Of a stretch of DNA of 64,000 nt, positions 26,915 through 39,505 are shown in pieces; the first letter of the stretch is position 1; every line of letters begins with the position of its first letter. The position numbers and the translations under genes were made by a program. Source of the DNA: Pirellulales bacterium (GTDB lineage: Bacteria; Planctomycetota; Planctomycetia; Pirellulales; JADZDJ01); the NCBI GenBank assembly GCA_035656635.1, contig DASRSD010000128.1:1-64000 (forward strand), written 5' to 3'. The notes beneath the pieces are model-generated. The model made no database searches, was not told the DNA's origin, and saw nothing but the letters and a program-made list of their open reading frames with translations.

Positions 26915-28594
26915 TTACATCGAAGCGAAGTAGTTGTCGAGCGCATCGCTGGAAGCATTGGCATCCGCGTCATGCAGAACATGGAAGTGATGCAAGGCGC
27001 CTTCATCGCTGGAATCGGAAGCAAACGGCAGCGACGCATCATCGTAGTGCAACGACGTCGCCTGCATCGCTGAGGGATCGGCGAGGAAATCGGCATCCGA
27101 ATACTGTCCCGACGCCAAGGCATTGTCGGCTCCAAAAGCACCGCTGCCGGCATCGACAGTAGACGCTATAGCAGCGGCCGCGCCAACGTCGGAGCCGCCT
27201 TCGGTGGCCATCGATTTAGCGAAGAAATAAAATACCCCCGGACTATTACTCAATGCCGGACGGGTGGGCGTGACGACCGTCGAACCGTTGAATGCCACCA
27301 AACCTGAAACCACTAAATTCGCCGCTGGAGCGCCTAAGCCGGAAGCCAAGTCGTATCCTTGGCCAGCGATGTTGCCGATGTTGTTTCCTGTCACGATATC
27401 GTGGAAATCGGCGACGGGCAGCTTGTAAACGATCGATTGAATATTGGCCAACGGCCCCTTACCGCTTAAAGCCCGGCCCTGATCGGCAATTGCAATCAAC
27501 GCAGACCACTGCGGTGCGCCGGCGCTGGTGCCACCGATAATTTCCCAGGGAGTGGTGGCGCCAAAGACGGCAGCATCTCGCACGGCGAAACCGGTGTTTG
27601 GATCGGCATTGTAAGAAACATCAGGAGTACCCCGGCCGGTCAACGTAGGAAGTAGCCCGGCATTGGTTGCCGTGTCTTGATATTGATAATTCGGCACGCT
27701 CTCCAGTGGAACACCGTTTACGATTGCACTCTCGCCACCGCCGCCGGCGTCGCCAGGACCATCGTTCCAAACTACTTGACTGGAAATGCTGTTATTGGGC
27801 GTAAGTTTTAAGCTGGATCCGCCGACACTGAGAACATTCGGCGAGGCGGATGGATAAGAAGCGGGCGCGCCGGTATCACCGGCGGAAAATACAAACTGCA
27901 CGGGCGCATGGCCGCTAGGTGTGGTAAATGAAGAATCGAGCGTACTTTCCCCCAACCCTTCGCCGCCCCCCCAACTGTTCGACACCACAACTACACCGGG
28001 CTGGCTCTTTGCATAGATGTCGCCCGCCATCAAATTTGCAGTGCTGTTGTTAGCGGTTTCGACAAGTAGAATGCTCGCCCCCGGAGCGATGCTATGCGCC
28101 CACTCCACATCCAACGAGATTTCCACCGACCAATCTGCATTGGCAGGAGGCAGTTGGGCGGAGTTGGACGAGCCGTTTTGGTTGACAATTCTAAAGCTCG
28201 GAGGGTCGGGAATGCCGAATTGCGCGTCGAATGCCTTCAGGTCGGCCGCAATGGTGGGAGAGCTAAACGCGTCAACAATGGCAATCGTGGTTCCGCTGCC
28301 GGTGGCTTTGACGCCACCTGGGAAGGTAATGCTGTTAAAGCCGTAGGCTTGACGGATTTGAGCAGGCGTGAACCCCGTTGGTCCAGCCGTTTGGTGCGGC
28401 TTCAAAACGGCATAATCAGGGCTCATGAAGACGTCCGCCAAACTTGCTAGCGACGCGCTGACTGCCGATGCGCTTAGCACCTGTCGAACTTCGAGCGGTT
28501 CGAACCGGCATTGCCGCCAGGCGCAAGAACGCCGGCGATGGATTCGGTTCGTGAAACGCTGGCCGTGAATATGCGGATTTTTGCGACGCGCCAT
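26915..28594 (-). CDS. Sedolisin-like (S53) serine peptidase with LEPR-XLL export motif
   Basis: A 559-residue secreted protein. The basic N-terminus leads to FEPLEVRQVLSA (31-42), a variant of the planctomycete LEPR-XLL motif. Residues about 75-430 form an S53 domain: catalytic E158 and D162 in SVEISLDVEWAHS, oxyanion-region SNSWGGGEG, and nucleophile S357 in IIGGTSAGAPQWSALIA. The calcium-site end FHDIVTGNNIGN and GYDLASGLGAP is also present. The large pro-domain usual in kumamolisins is missing; only about 30 residues precede the catalytic core. A 125-residue Asp/Ser-rich extension follows. It converges on the TatD gene 20 bases away. Confidence 0.88.
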   Translation of the reverse strand: MARRKNPHIHGQRFTNRIHRRRSCAWRQCRFEPLEVRQVLSASAVSASLASLADVFMSPDYAVLKPHQTAGPTGFTPAQIRQAYGFNSITFPGGVKATGSGTTIAIVDAFSSPTIAADLKAFDAQFGIPDPPSFRIVNQNGSSNSAQLPPANADWSVEISLDVEWAHSIAPGASILLVETANNSTANLMAGDIYAKSQPGVVVVSNSWGGGEGLGESTLDSSFTTPSGHAPVQFVFSAGDTGAPASYPSASPNVLSVGGSSLKLTPNNSISSQVVWNDGPGDAGGGGESAIVNGVPLESVPNYQYQDTATNAGLLPTLTGRGTPDVSYNADPNTGFAVRDAAVFGATTPWEIIGGTSAGAPQWSALIAIADQGRALSGKGPLANIQSIVYKLPVADFHDIVTGNNIGNIAGQGYDLASGLGAPAANLVVSGLVAFNGSTVVTPTRPALSNSPGVFYFFAKSMATEGGSDVGAAAAIASTVDAGSGAFGADNALASGQYSDADFLADPSAMQATSLHYDDASLPFASDSSDEGALHHFHVLHDADANASSDALDNYFASM

Positions 28595-29344: not shown

Positions 29345-32300
29345 ATGCTCCCGGAACAGCGCGGCTTGTTAACATCGTTTTTTAATCGGTTTCGCTCCAA
29401 GCGGCGCAGCGGCTGTAATACAGCCAGCAGCAGTAAACGCCGCAAGCAAGGCTTTGCGCGGCTCACGCAGTTGGAATCACTGGAAGATCGTCGGATGCTG
29501 ACGGCGACTCTGTACGTCGATTTTGGCCAACGATTGGGGAACGTTTCTCTCCCAGAAGATACCGTAGTTGATGGCGCGGCGGGCTGGTCTACCTTGGGGT
29601 TAGCTATTACGGCTAACAATCCGGTCGATTGGGTTTTTGGACCCGAGTTTCCCTACGCAGGCAATCCAACAATCACCTATACACCATTAAATATTCCGCA
29701 GAACTTGCCGACCAGCGTTTTCGATCCCGGCCCCGATCCTGCGGGAAGCCCGATTCAATTTCCAATTGGGCCGACATTGCCGCTGAGCGTTCAAGCAGCG
29801 GTTGAAAATTCAATTTTAGAGATTTTAGCCCGCGAAGTTGCGCCTTTTGACATGAATGTTGAGCTAGCGACCTCGCCGAACCTCGCCGCTGCTAGAGCGC
29901 TGTTAGCTTCTAATAATCGGCTCACCGATCCTAATCAAACTCTCGCCAACCCACCCAATGCGAATCTGTACAATCTGACCACTGCAAACCCCAAAGGATT
30001 TGTTCCCCCGGGCTTCGATGGCACACGGTTGAATACTCAGGCGGGCTTTACCTATGCTGCGTTAGGTTCCCCGGTAGGCACGCAGGACGTGTACATTTTG
30101 GTCGGCGGTTGGACCATTGGGGGCCAGGATGTCGGTGGACCGACACAAACCAACAGTCTTGGTTTTTCGGAACCGCACGGATTCACAACAACCATCGATC
30201 CTAACGATCCACTGTTTGGAGCCACGCCGGGCAACCCCATGGCGATGCCGCCGGTACCACCGACGCAGGCCATCCCCATCACTTATTCTGATGCCGGAGT
30301 GGCCGTCGATGCTGCCCAAATTTTGCAGCGAGCCTTGGCCGGGAGTTTGAAGCTGGACACGGCGATTTCCACGATTGCTGCGCAAATGGCGGCCATCACC
30401 TATGGCGGTGCATATGTCTTTACCGATCCGACAACGATGGTGCAGACCGAGGAGATTTTAGAGCACACCAATACCGGTGTCGCCAGTCCGGCAAATCCAT
30501 TCAGTGATCCGGATGTCAGTTTGCTCACCAGTTCTGACATCATGCGTGAGGGACCTGCCGAAAACGGACTTCCCGCCCCAACATTGAACAATGTTTCGGT
30601 GTTCACGCGGATGCCGCTGATGATTGGCGACGGCAACCAAGTTCCCACATTCGTGCAGAACGCTTACGACTTTTTCGCTAATGACCCCGATGTTGGGGCG
30701 CAATTGGGCACAGACCTCAATGCCCTGTCAGGATTTCCATTTAGTAAAGTGGCGTTTGTCACCGGCTCGGGAGCATTCGACGACGTTTCGATCACGAACG
30801 ATTTGGCAAATCCTGGAATGGCGCTGGTCACGGTGAATGCCTACCGCGACGCCACGTTTTCGCCAAACTCCTTTATTACGACATTTTCTTATGACGTCGA
30901 TTTAACGCCGGGTTTATTAACGACCAACGTGTTGCTGATTGAGCTGGGCAACAGCAATGATCAGCTCGACATTGATCCCTCGACAGCGAACCTGGCGGGC
31001 ACGGAAATTCTGGTGTTCGGCGGCGGTGGTGTGGATAACATGTCGCTGTTGGACAATGGCACGGATAGCATTTCGATGGCCCCCGAAAATGTGGACTTCT
31101 TTGAATATAGCCAAGTTGAACGCTTTGAAACCCAGCTGCAAATCAGCAATGGCGTAATCATTTTGGCGGATGAATTTGACGACACCAGCATTTTCCATTT
31201 GGAGGGCTTCAACTCGCTCACGTACACGATGCCGGAGTTTTTGGGAGACAATTTTTCGCTGACCGCGGAAGCCGGCTCGTCGCTGCCTTTGCCGCCTTCC
31301 AATAGCAGCGTTGACATGCTGTTGGACGGCACCGCAGGTCCGACCGCGGCCTCCCCGCTGATCAGCGTATGCAATGTAGAAATTACGGATGTTCCAAACG
31401 TTCTGATTCAGGATCCGATCGGCAGTTTTGCTGATACGTTTAGCATTACTTCCGATTTGGGTTTCTCGGATGGAATGCAAAATATTGAAATCAATTTGGG
31501 TCCCGGTGACGACACCCTCAATTTGTTTGGGACCGATTTCGCCTTCCAGGTTCCGGGGGGGGCGTTTACGTATGACGGTGGTTTGGGCACAGACACCATC
31601 AATGCCGAGGGTGATACCGACTGGGCCTTGTCCGATACCGAATTGACCGGCGCGGCCAGCGGGCTGGATTTGATTTGCCAGAACGTGGAAAACGCCAGCA
31701 TTACGGGCGGATTCAGCGACAATACGCTGGAAGTCGACAGTTGGGCTGGTCAGGCCAAGTTGGATGGCATGGAAGGCAACGACACGATTATCATTGGCGA
31801 TACGGTCAGCAGCGTTGTCAGCGGCAACATTACCGCCTTTGGCGGCGACGGGAACGATACCTTCTACGTCAATTCGTTTGTGCCCGGTTTCGATCCCATT
31901 ACGGGGACCATTAACACGTTGACCTTGAGCGGCGACAACGGCAACGACAATTTCATTCTGGGCAGAGACGCCATTAGCGGAGCGGGCGATTTGAACTCCA
32001 TCACCGGCAACGTCAACGTTACGGGAGTATCTGGCAACGATACGCTTACGCTGAACGATGCAAATTCCTCTGCAATCACAGTGCCCAACTACACGGTCGG
32101 CGCCAACTTTGTGACCGATGACGCTGGATTTGGACAAGCGAATTTCGACAATACCATCAAGAATCTAAAGATCATTGGGTCGACCGGAGCCAACGTGTTT
32201 GATGTCACGCCGAACCGTTCGACGAACATCAACATTGACGGCAACGATCCGCCATTCCCCCAACTGCCCGGAACCGGCGATGCGCTGGTCATTGAATTTT

Positions 32301-34081: not shown

Positions 34082-34548
34082 CGTGGTCGCCATGACGGCG
34101 GCCAAGCTGAATTCTTCCTGCCCCGAGGGGAAAAGGCGTTTTTTCAGGGAAAATCGGCGGTTTAATCAGAATTGTCGGAACTTTCATCATACTTATTGCG
34201 TTATTTAGAAAGCGCGTGCGTGTCAACGTTTTGCCGGGGTGGGATTTGCTTGACACCATGATTTGGCCTGATGAAACTAAAACTATGCGCGGCCAAGGGG
34301 CGCTGCGCGTAGAGGCACCCGGGAGATAGTTACGGAACAGACCGATTGGGCCCCCGCTAAGGGCCAATCGTTTTTGGGCGAAAATGCCTGTACACTTACG
34401 ACCAAAGTGGCACAGGCGGAGTGAAACAGTTGCGTCCCTCGCGGCGTGGCTGAAATTCTTCAACGAGTTCGCCCTGTCTGTCGGTTGCCACAACCCTGAT
34501 TGACCCGCGTTGAATTCACCCACTTTGGCCTTGTCCCACGGTATTGCC
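34082..34548. other. 470-base intergenic region between the giant paralogues
   Basis: No gene seen. It contains the intrinsic terminator at 34343-34376, leaving about 170 bases before the second giant gene, so each paralogue probably has its own promoter. A minus-strand frame over this region (34011-34601) is a shadow that overlaps both genes. Confidence 0.6.
34343..34376 (+). terminator. Intrinsic terminator between the giant paralogues
   Basis: CGATTGGGCCC (34343-34353) pairs with GGGCCAATCG (34361-34370) with one bulged G, giving a ten-pair stem and a seven-base loop. TTTTTG follows directly. This is the best stem plus T-tract in the window. It lies 260 bases after the stop of the first giant gene, leaving an unusually long 3' untranslated region if it serves that gene. 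Confidence 0.6.
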
Positions 34549-37500
34549 ATGCTTCCGGAACAAAGAGGTTTGCTGTCGGGGTTCTTTTCACGCTTCCGCA
34601 ATTCTAAACGCTATGGCCGCAAAGCGAAGAATCGTTTTCTATCCGCTGGCTGGCGCGCGGCTGTCGAGCCCCTGGAAGCCCGGCGGTTATTGGTCAGCCG
34701 CGTGTTCATCGATTTCGGCGATGCCTTTCCGGTGCAAGCGACCGGTCCCTTTGCGGGCACGCAGACCCTCCTCGCTATTACTGCCGCAACGCTGCAAACA
34801 AACCTTGTTGGGGTCGGCGGACAAGGCCAGACTGACCAAGATTTGTTGGGCGAGTTTGCCGCAACGCCAACGGGCGGTCTGGACTTGATGAGCTTCGCCA
34901 CCTTTTTGGATTCACCTGTGTTCAACCCACAGGGCTTAGCGCCGGCCGATCCCGCCACGCTAGAGGCTGCCATCGTCGAGCAGATCAAACAAGCATTGGA
35001 ACCATTTGATATTCAAGTGATTCCAGCCGATGGAAATCTCTCGAACTTCCCGGTAGCAACGCTGGCCGCTGCGGGGCGTCTGGAGGGGCTCAATAATCAA
35101 GTTGGCACGATTGGGGCACCAGCCGGAGATGCTTCAGCGACCGTGCTGCAATATGGCAGCGACGACGTCTACCTGTTCATTGGCGCCGAATATACGCTAG
35201 TGAACAACATTCCGGTGCCTGTGTTCGATTCCATCTCGGCCGATTTTGCCGTGAATGTGACGACGCCATTTTCTCAACCCAATCGGCTCGACTCGGGCGC
35301 TATTATCGACGCCAGTTACTTCCTCCAGCGCGTGCTAGGGAACGGTTCTGGCACAGGCACTCCCACAGACCCGGGATTAGGCTTTGGCGGTACGGGTGGC
35401 TCGTACAATATTGCGTTAGCGAATGCCTCGTTATACGCAATTGGTTGGGATTACGGTCTGTCGGAAGTTGAAAATGGCACGCCCGGACCGTTCACGAATT
35501 TTTTTGATCCCAACGTTCAACTGGTTAACCAAGCCGGCGCCATGCAGGAAGCCGGCTTCACCGAAGGTTTTTTTATAAATGGAGTTTCCCCCAGTTTGCC
35601 GATCAGCGACACGGAGCCGGCGTACTTTCCAAATTTCAACATGATGCAGGCGGGGATGGACTTCAATGCGTTCATGAAGAATCCCACGCTTGGCAATCCC
35701 TCGGAAGTGTTCTCGGAACCTTTCCCGTTGCCTCCGTTGACACAAGACACCACATTGATTTTTCCGCCTACCTTTAGCGTCAACACCGATCCGGCGGCCA
35801 CGGTGAATTTGTATCAGCAAATGGCCAGCGATCCCGATATCGGCCCGAATCCTGACGTCGTGGGCTACGTGACGGGAACCGGTGCGTACGATCAAATTTT
35901 CATTACGCGGCTGAATGCCACTCAGGCCAAAGTCACCGTCAATGCTTACACGGACGACACATACACCACGTTAGTCAGCCAGGCTGCTGCGGACGACGGC
36001 GACCCAGGCGTAGTCTCTAGCTACAGCTACACCATCAATCTCACCAAAACAGCGATTCCTGGTCGCAAGGACGATGGCAAAGCGCCCACCATTATTGTGG
36101 ATGGGCTCAATAACAATGACCAAGTCTTTCTGGACCCCACCCTGGGTGTTGGCGCCAAACCCGTACTGATTGAAGTTCACGGTGGTGCGGATGTGAAGAC
36201 GCTCAACATTACTGGCAATGGCACCTATAACGCGGTCTACACCCCGGCCCAGTCCACGGCTCCGCTAGGAACGAGCACAATTATTAACACCTATGCCGCC
36301 AGCCTCCTTCCGGAAGGCCTAATTCCCGGTGCGGCAGGGACCTTGGTGATCACCGGTTCGACGGTCGTTACGACCACCACGACGGTTGGCAAGAAAACTA
36401 CGACCACGAAGGCAACGCTGCCGGTCAAGACGACCATCATGCTCGACCATTTCAATCCAGGGAATGAAAGCGCGTTGCAGTTAGACGGATTCAACCAGCT
36501 CGATTATACCTCACCGGGTTTTACCAATAACGAATACAACGTGGTGGACATGCTGGATGGCTCGTGGCAGATATCCGGCCAGAACGACAGCACATTTAAT
36601 CCGCCTTCGCTCACCGGCAATTTGCAATTCAACAATATTAAGCAATTCATCGTCGACACGAGCAAAGGTGCAAGCACCGATACCGTCAGCTTTGCCACGT
36701 CCGACGAAGTGCCCACAGGCTTGCACTTGGTCAGCGTGGTGATGGGCGCCCAGGGATTTGGCGGCCAAGACGAACTCGATTTCAACGATTCGCTGAATGC
36801 AGATGGTTCGCCAAATTTGGAAGACCAGAATTACTTGATTTCCAGCACGCAGTTGCTGCCGGTGCAGTCCGCCGGTTCGGTGTTTACCGGCTTTACCTAT
36901 AGTGGCGTGGAATTGCTGACGCTGAACGGCACCCAGGGAACCGATCAATTTACCGTTACGCCCAGCACCAAAACCACGTACGTTATCAACGGTGATCCTT
37001 CCGCGGTGCAGAACACACTGGCGGTTCATTTGGCCGGCACGCAGTATCACGAATTCGACGACACCACGGGCAACGGCCAATGGTCGTTCGACAACCGCAT
37101 GCCGATTACGTTTACCAACATCCAGAACATCGTCAATCAATTTGGCAAAGACGGTGTGAACCCGGCAGATTACCAGTCGAATCCGGTGGCCGACAACGCC
37201 TCGCCAATTTATGCCGGCAGTGAGGATAGCGACATTCTGGCGGTGGCCGCCAGCTCCGACAGCGGTGTCAGCAAGCCGTTGGTCCAGGTGTATAGTGCCA
37301 TCACCAACAAGTTGCTGTATAGCTTCTATGCGTTCTCACAAACCTTTGGCGGCGGCGTACGGGTTACCACCGCCGACGTGAATGGCGATAACGGTGATGG
37401 AACTGGAACGCCGGACATCATTGTCGCCACGGGCGCCGGCACGCTGGGCGAAGTAAGGGTATTCGACGGCTTAACGCTGCAAAACGCTCCGAAAAATGCC

Positions 37501-38277
37501 GCAGGGTTGGTCACGAATCCGAACGCAGCGATATTGACTGACATCACTCCCGAAGCCGGATTCAAAAACGGCTTTAATGTAGCTTCGGCCGATGTCGATG
37601 GCGACGGCACCCCAGATTTGATCGTCTCTAACGGCAAGGGCGCGCCAACGGTCATGGTGTTCCTCAACAATGGATCGGGCGTCTTCAACGCCGCGCCAGA
37701 TACAACTTTTGCCGCTTATCCCAAAACCATGGTTTCGGGCGTGTTGGTGGCCGCGGGCGATGTCGATGGCGACGGCATTTCGGAAATTGTCACCGCTCCG
37801 GGCGTGGGGCAAGTGGCCTTAATCAAGGTATTCAGCTACGCCGATGTGTCGGCCAATCCGGCGGCAGCGCCGATTCGCCAATTCAATGGCTTCGAGACCA
37901 CGTTCAAAGGAGGCGTGTCGCTTACCATGGGCGACCTGGATGGCGATGGCCTGGATGAAATCATCCTTGGCGCCGGGCAAGGTGGGAAATCACGCGTACG
38001 GGTCTTCACCGGCAATACCGGCACGCTGGAAAGAGAATTCCAAGCGTACACCACCGGTAACATTAACGCTCCGGTGAAAGTTCTGGCCCGCGATATTGAT
38101 GGCAGCGGGGTTGCTGAGCTATATACCACGCCGGTCGGAACGGCTGTGACGCACACAGTGCAGTTGCTCGATCCGTTGTCGGTTACCAATCCGCTGGTGA
38201 CGCCGCTAATTGCTCCCTTGGTCGACACGATCATGGAGAGCGCCGCGGATATGAAAACCGGAATCAATCTGGGTTAG
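34549..38277 (+). CDS. Giant LEPR-XLL surface protein with degenerate metzincin-like and FG-GAP domains (paralogue 2)
   Basis: An exported 1242-residue paralogue of the preceding protein. The ATG at 34549 is chosen because MLPEQRGLLSGFFSRFR then matches the start of paralogue 1. The export motif is VEPLEARRLLVS (39-50). In the N-terminal domain, EPFDIQVIPAD and the helix Y296-A-I-G-W-D-Y-G303-L-S-E306 reproduce the spacing of the metzincin HExxHxxGxxH motif with only the Gly kept; AMQEAG (M332) is the Met-turn position. The rest is beta-rich sequence and four FG-GAP loops (ADVNGDNGDGTGTPDIIV, ADVDGDGTPDLIV, GDVDGDGISEIV, GDLDGDGLDEII). No 64-residue repeats are inserted. Probable surface or matrix protein. 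Confidence 0.85.
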   Translation: MLPEQRGLLSGFFSRFRNSKRYGRKAKNRFLSAGWRAAVEPLEARRLLVSRVFIDFGDAFPVQATGPFAGTQTLLAITAATLQTNLVGVGGQGQTDQDLLGEFAATPTGGLDLMSFATFLDSPVFNPQGLAPADPATLEAAIVEQIKQALEPFDIQVIPADGNLSNFPVATLAAAGRLEGLNNQVGTIGAPAGDASATVLQYGSDDVYLFIGAEYTLVNNIPVPVFDSISADFAVNVTTPFSQPNRLDSGAIIDASYFLQRVLGNGSGTGTPTDPGLGFGGTGGSYNIALANASLYAIGWDYGLSEVENGTPGPFTNFFDPNVQLVNQAGAMQEAGFTEGFFINGVSPSLPISDTEPAYFPNFNMMQAGMDFNAFMKNPTLGNPSEVFSEPFPLPPLTQDTTLIFPPTFSVNTDPAATVNLYQQMASDPDIGPNPDVVGYVTGTGAYDQIFITRLNATQAKVTVNAYTDDTYTTLVSQAAADDGDPGVVSSYSYTINLTKTAIPGRKDDGKAPTIIVDGLNNNDQVFLDPTLGVGAKPVLIEVHGGADVKTLNITGNGTYNAVYTPAQSTAPLGTSTIINTYAASLLPEGLIPGAAGTLVITGSTVVTTTTTVGKKTTTTKATLPVKTTIMLDHFNPGNESALQLDGFNQLDYTSPGFTNNEYNVVDMLDGSWQISGQNDSTFNPPSLTGNLQFNNIKQFIVDTSKGASTDTVSFATSDEVPTGLHLVSVVMGAQGFGGQDELDFNDSLNADGSPNLEDQNYLISSTQLLPVQSAGSVFTGFTYSGVELLTLNGTQGTDQFTVTPSTKTTYVINGDPSAVQNTLAVHLAGTQYHEFDDTTGNGQWSFDNRMPITFTNIQNIVNQFGKDGVNPADYQSNPVADNASPIYAGSEDSDILAVAASSDSGVSKPLVQVYSAITNKLLYSFYAFSQTFGGGVRVTTADVNGDNGDGTGTPDIIVATGAGTLGEVRVFDGLTLQNAPKNAAGLVTNPNAAILTDITPEAGFKNGFNVASADVDGDGTPDLIVSNGKGAPTVMVFLNNGSGVFNAAPDTTFAAYPKTMVSGVLVAAGDVDGDGISEIVTAPGVGQVALIKVFSYADVSANPAAAPIRQFNGFETTFKGGVSLTMGDLDGDGLDEIILGAGQGGKSRVRVFTGNTGTLEREFQAYTTGNINAPVKVLARDIDGSGVAELYTTPVGTAVTHTVQLLDPLSVTNPLVTPLIAPLVDTIMESAADMKTGINLG

Positions 38278-38380: not shown

Positions 38381-39505
38381 TTATTTGCCGCTCGGCCGTT
38401 CGTCGCCCGAATTGGCCGATGATCTGGCAGGCGTCATGGGCTTGTCATCCGACTTGCCGGCACCTGAGCTGGCATCCGTGTCCCCGTTCTGGGATCCTTG
38501 TTCCGCTTGCTTGGCAGCCGCTTGAATTCGCGGCGAATTGTCGAAATCGAACACAGGAAAGCTCAAGCGGTTCAAGCCGGCCAAATGCGCAACGTCGGCC
38601 AATACCGCGGCGGGGCGATTCATGATCTTGGTGTAACGCCAGTCGTCGTCGCCATACACTTCGGTGAGTAAAGTCGCTAACGCGGCATCCTTGGCTTTCA
38701 ACTGTTCCCGATTGCTGGCGCCGCCGGCGTTTTTAGGATTGGCACAATCGAACCAACATTGCGCCCCTTCGGCCCAGTATTCTTGCTCGTTGGTACCGGC
38801 GTAGCTGTCGCCATAAATTCCTTTGGCCTGGGCATCGTTATACGCATCCCGCAAGCGGTTGTACCAGGCACGGTTCACCCGGCGAATGGCGCTGGCGACC
38901 GTGTGCGAGAATTCGTGAATGGTAATGTTCTCCTTGATGTATGGGTCGCCCCGCAGATTCAACAGGTTTTCCTCCGCGCAAGTGGCCAAGGGCAAACCAC
39001 CCAATCCACGCGAACGCCTGTCGTGATAGGCGCCGCGGGCGATCATTTGCGGGCGTTGGTTTTCTGGAATGTCCAGCGTGTATTCCGTGACCGCAATAAT
39101 TCCCACGCGCACCTTGCAGGCCAATAAGGCGTCATGGGCCAGGGTTCGCCCGTGCAGCAAATGATCCAGCGTCCAGGCACATTCCAAAAATGCATAATCC
39201 GAAACCTTCTCGGATCCGATGATCGGAATGCCGACAATGGTGGCGGATTTTTTGTAGAACGGATTTATCCGATATTCCTTGCGCAATTCGTCGGAAATTG
39301 CATCGACGTAAATCGGCGGAGATTGTGTTACATGGCCATCCGCATCTTCACTCGGTAGCGGCGTGTAAGTGGACTTTTTGGCGGTTTGTCTATTGAGTGA
39401 AGAAGTCTCGATTGCAGGCTTGCCCGATTGGGCAAACACGCTCTTGATAAATAAGGCATTTGCCAACAATCCGACGAACAGGATCGGACCTAAGCGTTTG
39501 TGCAT
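38381..39505 (-). CDS. Secreted M34-like zinc metalloprotease
   Basis: A 374-residue protein with a signal peptide (RLGPILFVGLLANALFIKSVFA). The zinc motif is HEFSH at 197-201 (H197, E198, H201). The third ligand is probably a Glu in NEQEYWAEGAQCWFD (E242 or E246), 41-45 residues later. This arrangement, including the NxxEYxAE block, recalls anthrax lethal factor and related ATLF domains. Four or five cysteines (C109, C130, C176, C250, C254) suggest disulfides in the envelope. The C-terminus is a low-complexity Ser/Asp/Gly tail. It converges on the second giant surface gene. Substrate unknown. Confidence 0.75.
   Translation of the reverse strand: MHKRLGPILFVGLLANALFIKSVFAQSGKPAIETSSLNRQTAKKSTYTPLPSEDADGHVTQSPPIYVDAISDELRKEYRINPFYKKSATIVGIPIIGSEKVSDYAFLECAWTLDHLLHGRTLAHDALLACKVRVGIIAVTEYTLDIPENQRPQMIARGAYHDRRSRGLGGLPLATCAEENLLNLRGDPYIKENITIHEFSHTVASAIRRVNRAWYNRLRDAYNDAQAKGIYGDSYAGTNEQEYWAEGAQCWFDCANPKNAGGASNREQLKAKDAALATLLTEVYGDDDWRYTKIMNRPAAVLADVAHLAGLNRLSFPVFDFDNSPRIQAAAKQAEQGSQNGDTDASSGAGKSDDKPMTPARSSANSGDERPSGK

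Follow-up and report, generated by a model that had tools for sequence, protein, structure and literature searches.

The first 64,000 nucleotides of contig DASRSD010000128.1 (assembly GCA_035656635.1, a Pirellulales bacterium), which we call the window, carry two tandem paralogous genes, here named P1 and P2, whose long products each hold near their N-terminus a metzincin-like domain devoid of zinc ligands. Our analysis suggests that the P2 domain is a pseudo-metzincin serving as an extracellular binding module, a reading to which we give a probability of about 0.7. The loss of the zinc site is well supported by sequence comparison. A binding role is the more conjectural part; the conservation of the dead helix in P2 favors binding over a mere relic.

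The original prediction had laid residues 296-306 of P2, YAIGWDYGLSE, over the zinc motif HExxHxxGxxH, with the glycine kept and His, Glu, His, and His turned into Tyr, Ala, Trp, and Glu; it had also pointed to EPFDIQV (151-157) and to a Met-turn-like AMQEAG (331-336) as fitting the order of a metzincin fold. All three strings are exact when P2 is translated from the ATG at 34549, the substitutions are borne out by the gap-free overlay and by aligned homologs, and both flanking blocks align with zinc-bearing relatives. Where the metzincin motif reads HExxHxxGxxH/D, P2 thus has no ligand, and by composition its domain contains 0 histidines and 0 cysteines among 398 residues, so that zinc catalysis through histidines is excluded. 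The domains of the two other P2 proteins described below hold one and two histidines, none at the motif, and zinc-bearing domains 1.3 to 3.8 per 100 residues.

A search of the window's own genome (G000) and 96 relatives with the P2 domain gave matches in 3 of the 97 genomes: the window's own, one of the same genus (G001), and one of a sister genus of the same family (G002). The frames of these three P2 orthologs are open through 1136 to 1242 codons. G001 and G002 each also carry a P1 and, in G002, P1 and P2 share a contig and keep the order they have in the window, with one additional protein between them. The P1 of G002, the syntenic ortholog of the window's P1, has an intact HEAGHTFGLRH, reading AAMSNVVAHEAGHTFGLRH at the columns where P2 reads IALANASLYAIGWDYGLSE.

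The homology of the P2 domain to zinc-bearing relatives can be regarded as secure on the basis of profile comparisons. The profile of the three P2 domains matched the zinc-bearing profile along the entire domain (hhalign, 99.2%, E 7e-20, 273 columns) with a score of 141.3, whereas 60 column shuffles gave at most 26.1 and the reversed profile gave 19.1. Once the C-terminal TGTGA-D block was removed (residues 51-345), the score still came to 73.4, with none of 40 shuffles above 21.6. The zinc-bearing profile (A4) run directly on the window's own genome found P2 by its C-terminal end only (E 1e-4), hence the whole domain is visible only by profile-profile comparison. At the site itself, MAFFT aligned the zinc-bearing L040 (ANNIAHEAGHLLGL) and P2 (ANASLYAIGWDYGL) without a gap and hhalign placed a 4-column gap directly before GWD, both methods agreeing that the tryptophan falls on the second histidine and that the glycine is in register. 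The overlay is not due to chance, because the homologs align over the full domain, with HExxHxxGxxH at these very columns. AMQEAG is aligned with EIMSYQ in L040 and EVMSYL in L020, which are classic spellings of the Met-turn; its M332, invariant in P2, thereby occupies the place of the Met-turn methionine as far as position in the sequence goes.

Homologs with an intact motif turned out to be the rule outside the window's family, where 19 of 21 distinct domains keep it, compared with one of six within the family. This count comes from one hidden Markov model (A3) run on the loci from the order, named-genome, phylum, and class searches, with identical sequences counted once; it leaves out L048, L056, L057, and L059 (repeats of the own genome or of G690), L022 (a fragment without the helix), L093 (P2 itself), and 11 weaker, more distant distinct matches, all with HExxH. 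Another set of loci lay under the A3 threshold and thus outside the count (L046, L049-L052, L055, L058, L082, L087, L088, L090, and L091); among them, L046 and L050 have HExxH. One of the 19 (G690, L045/L075) is split over two frames, its motif being taken from the C-terminal half; in this genome (L045/L075/L056) the domain extends over two open frames, of which the second contains HEAFHTYSLRH; the gene may be broken, or the break may stem from sequencing. As for the individual searches, a profile of six domains detected the family in 10 of 396 genomes of the order, A4 matched 15 of 392 genomes of the phylum, and A3 matched 29 of 397 genomes of the class, some of the A4 and A3 matches being weaker, more distant metzincin-like proteins. 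The named-genome scan returned 12 loci labelled as planctomycete metagenome-assembled genomes, 11 of which have HExxHxxxxxH at the aligned place, the exception being L039 (Gemmataceae). His200, Glu201, His204, and His210 are invariant across 11 zinc-bearing rows. The two zinc-less members outside the window's family, L039/L073 (AQAAAQSYAS) and L053/L085 (ARVAARNFGLGN; another family of the order), probably lost their ligands independently. No relative was found among 45 pattern matches on viral contigs.

Two variations within the zinc-bearing set may be mentioned. In L021, L035, L037, L038, and L042-L044 the glycine of the motif is replaced by threonine or serine (e.g., HEAFHTFTLVH), HExxH and the third histidine being kept, and in L043 (G443) and L044 (G630) the zinc-bearing domain lies inside open frames of 10,696 and 13,571 residues.

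We found no Pfam family specific to the zinc-bearing relatives, whose matches to Reprolysin and M10 models mostly fall under the cut-off; Reprolysin_4 reached 22.9 bits in one of them taken as a bare domain (cut-off 22) and 21.8 for the whole protein. A sequence search of the PDB with the six-row family profile A1 gave no metzincin but two unrelated matches (E 0.084 and 0.42), and the same search with A4 gave venom metalloproteinases at E values of at least 0.04, mixed with calcineurin-B-homologous and UPF0054 proteins.

Structure prediction agrees with a metzincin fold for P2, an agreement that falls short of proof. For the domain model of the zinc-bearing L032 (predicted local distance difference test, pLDDT, 73.9; predicted template modeling score, pTM, 0.78), the first Foldseek rows included ADAM33, leucurolysin, and ADAM8 (E at least 0.055), and 46 of the 50 VIA rows listed were metzincins, as judged from titles (Z up to 7.6). 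The P2 model (pLDDT 50.2, pTM 0.58) shows the same order of elements; its predicted helix 236-254 (P2 residues 283-301) has Tyr296 at offset 13, where helix 187-206 of the L032 model has His200. All 50 VIA rows listed for P2 were metzincins, again judged from titles (Z up to 7.7), and ADAM22 chains were among its first Foldseek rows (E 0.78 and above). Archaemetzincin and adamalysin structures (3lmc, 2x7m, 1bud, and 2aig) are among the best rows for both models, with Z of 6.8 to 7.7, root-mean-square deviations of 3.1 to 4.3, 112 to 151 residues, and identities of 10 to 19%; unlike P2, these are zinc enzymes. We take 3lmc to be of the archaemetzincin type and, among the other entries, 6o38 to be CpaA. 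Of the two outcomes that the original prediction had named as contrary to it, a fold without relation to metzincins and a lack of homologs with intact zinc motifs, neither was observed, and the secreted protease it had proposed as an ancestor is supported by the intact-motif homologs together with these fold matches.

Over residues 283-310 the window's P2 is identical to that of G001 at 24 of 28 positions, in a domain of about 49% identity, and 14 of 371 segments of the same length score as high; relative to G002, 18 of 28 positions are identical (13 of 371 segments). In the same stretch, 68% (G001) and 50% (G002) of third codon positions differ. Since the DNA of the stretch has diverged and its protein sequence has been kept, the old site of P2 is maintained and not decaying. 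Y296, W300, and E306, which stand where ligands used to be, do not vary among the three orthologs, and neither do D301 and E308. The old helix varies far less than the greater part of the domain, and the helix of P2 therefore still does something, even if the blocks near residues 133-162 and 422-448 are equally conserved across the three proteins. That these five invariant residues could form a new catalytic site, P2 still being an enzyme by another chemistry based on a Tyr/Trp/Asp/Glu helix, is very improbable in our view: apart from the invariance itself, no catalytic signature was recognized, and the domain has neither His nor Cys to work with.

P1 offers a point of comparison. The pair of P1 domains from the window's genus matches the zinc-bearing profile as well (hhalign 98.9%, E 2e-17), its zinc site being replaced by AAQMAAITYGG, with a 17-residue insert directly after the glycine in the window's copy. 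In the stretch that corresponds to residues 283-310 of P2, however, the P1 domains of the two same-genus species share 9 of 28 residues, a value reached by 260 of 399 segments. The old site thus looks re-used in P2 and relaxed in P1. Such a lack of conservation, along with the insert, is what one would expect of a structural relic, that is, of a dead domain that folds and caps or spaces a long secreted protein, its old site being left without a partner. For P2, this explanation is unlikely, though it deserves some weight, as the old site ranks among the best-conserved segments of the domain without being the only one.

The P1 genes also bear on when the zinc was lost. A tree of 23 domains requires three changes between zinc-bearing and dead states. 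The domain tree places the five dead domains together, with support of 80/76 in one tree and 93/90 in the other, but the tree of the C-terminal parts groups the P1 of G002 with P1 (99/98), and a trio of P1 domains is not rejected by the approximately unbiased test (p 0.115); long branches may have drawn the dead domains together in the domain tree. By synteny and the C-terminal tree, the P1 of G002 is an ortholog of P1 and, since it is intact, P2 and P1 would have lost their zinc separately. Two losses in the window's family, that of P2 before the split of the two genera and that of P1 in the window's genus, are therefore the more likely history, without being settled. A single loss in the family, with the P1 of G002 branching outside, is allowed by the domain tree and disfavored by synteny and the C-terminal tree.

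The tandem arrangement in G002 of P2 with a P1 bearing an intact zinc motif also brings to mind that P2 might regulate an active protease or act as its decoy, competing for substrate or binding the neighboring paralog, a kind of control by pseudo-peptidases that is described in PMC11266112. We consider this improbable: in the window's genus P1 is dead too and P2 has nevertheless been kept, and the family genes detected in G000 and G001 (two in each) are all dead, with no zinc-bearing member among them, which makes regulation of P1 less likely.

Binding by P2 would come about as follows. The ancestor of the domain was a secreted zinc protease domain of the metzincin type, from a family that occurs throughout Planctomycetes. 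Before the two sampled genera split, the P2 lineage replaced the three zinc histidines (by Tyr, Trp, and Glu) and the catalytic glutamate (by Ala), the aromatic Tyr and Trp most likely filling the former metal pocket. Helix and cleft most likely bind proteins or polymers, on the surface of a large extracellular protein ending in FG-GAP repeats, much as ADAM22-type pseudo-proteases do. A wider and more tentative proposal, which we would put a little below even odds, is that Planctomycetes have repeatedly turned a secreted metzincin scaffold into noncatalytic binding modules (P2, P1 of the window's genus, L039, and L053), the P2 helix being a new selected recognition site with Tyr, Trp, and Glu at the ligand places, and an independently arisen counterpart of the ADAM22 type.

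Several points weigh against P2 being a pseudo-metzincin with a binding role. Residues 160-345 taken alone score 23.4, marginally above the shuffle maximum of 21.6; the motif region by itself is near background and the link between P2 and its zinc-bearing relatives rests on the whole domain. The isolated P2 and P1 domains match no metzincin family of Pfam even at E 10. The P2 model is weak (pLDDT 50.2), and the alignment behind it held zinc-bearing rows that pull the fold; Foldseek E values exceed 0.05, and VIA Z values stay below 8, a range that may reflect just a common arrangement of elements. The window's family is represented by three genomes, so that the P2 statistics are those of three sequences, and with regard to binding partner and expression the role is a putative one. 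The first two points are also what would speak for a chance resemblance, in which P2 has no metzincin ancestry and the glycine-centered overlay is an accident; the whole-domain profile match with its shuffle and reversal controls and the tandem syntenic paralog of G002 with HEAGHTFGLRH leave this with almost no credence.

To our knowledge, work on pseudo-metzincins has mostly concerned animal proteins. The nearest parallel to P2 in function is ADAM22, which, like ADAM11 and ADAM23 (M12B), has a metzincin domain without a working zinc site in a multidomain extracellular protein; these are animal and membrane-bound proteins with a disintegrin domain, whereas P2 comes from a bacterium, lacks Cys in the domain, and carries FG-GAP repeats at its end. 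A direct match in sequence between P2 and this group did not turn up, and neither the P2 nor the P1 domain reached the curated cut-off of Pfam Reprolysin/ADAM (M12B) models. In ADAM22 the zinc-less domain carries the contact surface for LGI1, as stated in section 2.3 of PMC11266112; this review makes no reference to planctomycetes, and in its passages on prokaryotes the peptidases named are of the M16 type only. Much closer in sequence are the zinc-bearing planctomycete relatives (L032, L040, L031, and the P1 of G002), homologous over the whole domain and sharing with P2 the D-F/Y-G start, the EPFD block, in most cases the glycine after the motif, and the TGTGA(H/F/Y)D end; they differ from P2 by their intact HExxHxxxxxH and by C-terminal parts of several kinds (L031, for example, has RTX repeats). 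That zincin families can have replaced motif residues is well known: PMC3650047 describes CLCA, many members of which, bacterial ones included, have such replacements, and reports some replaced residues in about half of the surveyed HExxH domains. P2 differs in having lost all four motif residues at once along with every histidine of the domain, and CLCA is a different family. As a homolog of proteins with a peptidase motif whose own catalytic residues are gone, P2 would by its sequence belong with the pseudo-metallopeptidases.

What appears to be new is a metzincin family of planctomycetes in which the zinc site was lost completely more than once and a replaced helix is conserved; no planctomycete pseudo-metzincin appeared in the titles and abstracts of the literature searched, which combined planctomycetes or bacteria with metzincins, pseudo-enzymes, inactive metallopeptidases, or zinc motifs. 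With its zinc-bearing and zinc-less members, its tandem paralogs, and a sister genus in which one of these is intact, the family amounts to a natural experiment on the loss of catalysis in a protease and on what preserves the domain afterwards. In addition, the N-terminal part of large planctomycete proteins, in which Pfam sees nothing but FG-GAP repeats, thereby receives its first domain assignment.

Table 1. Features of P1 and P2 in the window, with the basis of each.
Feature	Position	Strand	Basis or remark
P1, tandem paralog, 1578 residues	29345..34081	+	
P1 metzincin-like domain, no zinc ligands	29507..30781	+	hhalign, P1 pair against zinc-bearing relatives
P1 AAQMAAITYG, residues 345-354, at the place of HExxH	30377..30406	+	followed by the 17-residue insert
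P2, 1242-residue open reading frame, probably secreted	34549..38277	+	starts MLPEQRGLLSGFF
VEPLEARRLL-like planctomycete extracellular motif, P2 residues 36-48	34654..34692	+	PF07595 match under cut-off, E 0.25
Pseudo-metzincin domain, P2 residues 51-448	34699..35892	+	hhalign against zinc-bearing relatives; no His, no Cys
EPFDIQV, P2 residues 151-157, end of long helix and next strand	34999..35019	+	common to zinc-bearing relatives
Former active-site helix and next turn, P2 residues 283-310	35395..35478	+	24/28 identity to G001, 18/28 to G002
YAIGWDYGLSE in place of HExxHxxGxxH, P2 residues 296-306	35434..35466	+	translation; relatives aligned
AMQEAG, Met-turn position, P2 residues 331-336	35539..35556	+	aligned with EIMSYQ/EVMSYL of zinc-bearing relatives
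FG-GAP_3 repeat stretch, P2 residues 1015-1081	37591..37791	+	Pfam, best of three
FG-GAP repeat, P2 residues 1122-1152	37912..38004	+	Pfam, best of three

P1 and the same-genus ortholog begin almost identically to P2 (MLPEQRGLLSGFF), which favors the ATG at 34549 over an upstream TTG at 34510. Secretion of P2 is probable from its weak match to the Planc_extracel motif (PF07595), which reaches E 0.0082 in P1. Pfam and NCBIfam searches of P1 and P2 gave no peptidase, only FG-GAP, weak Planc_extracel, and chance-level matches. A promoter and terminator scan upstream of P2 found 0 promoter-like sites and one terminator-like site (1.1 expected).

Other genes around P1 and P2 also show peptidase-like features. 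Downstream of P2, the open reading frame at 38381-39505 (-) contains HEFSH, its sole match being to Peptidase_M90 under the cut-off (E 0.03). The protein between P1 and P2 in G002 (L006:5177-7633) is a PPC and CARDB protein with HEIGHVLGL, matching Peptidase_M8 and M10 under the cut-off, and has partial matches on other contigs of G000 and G001. Upstream of P1, the frame at 26915-28594 (-) is serine-peptidase-like by its SNSWGGGE and GGTSAGAPQW motifs, recognized by eye and without a Pfam peptidase match, and has a similar N-terminal motif; a similar frame adjoins P1 in G001 (L008:6299-8134).
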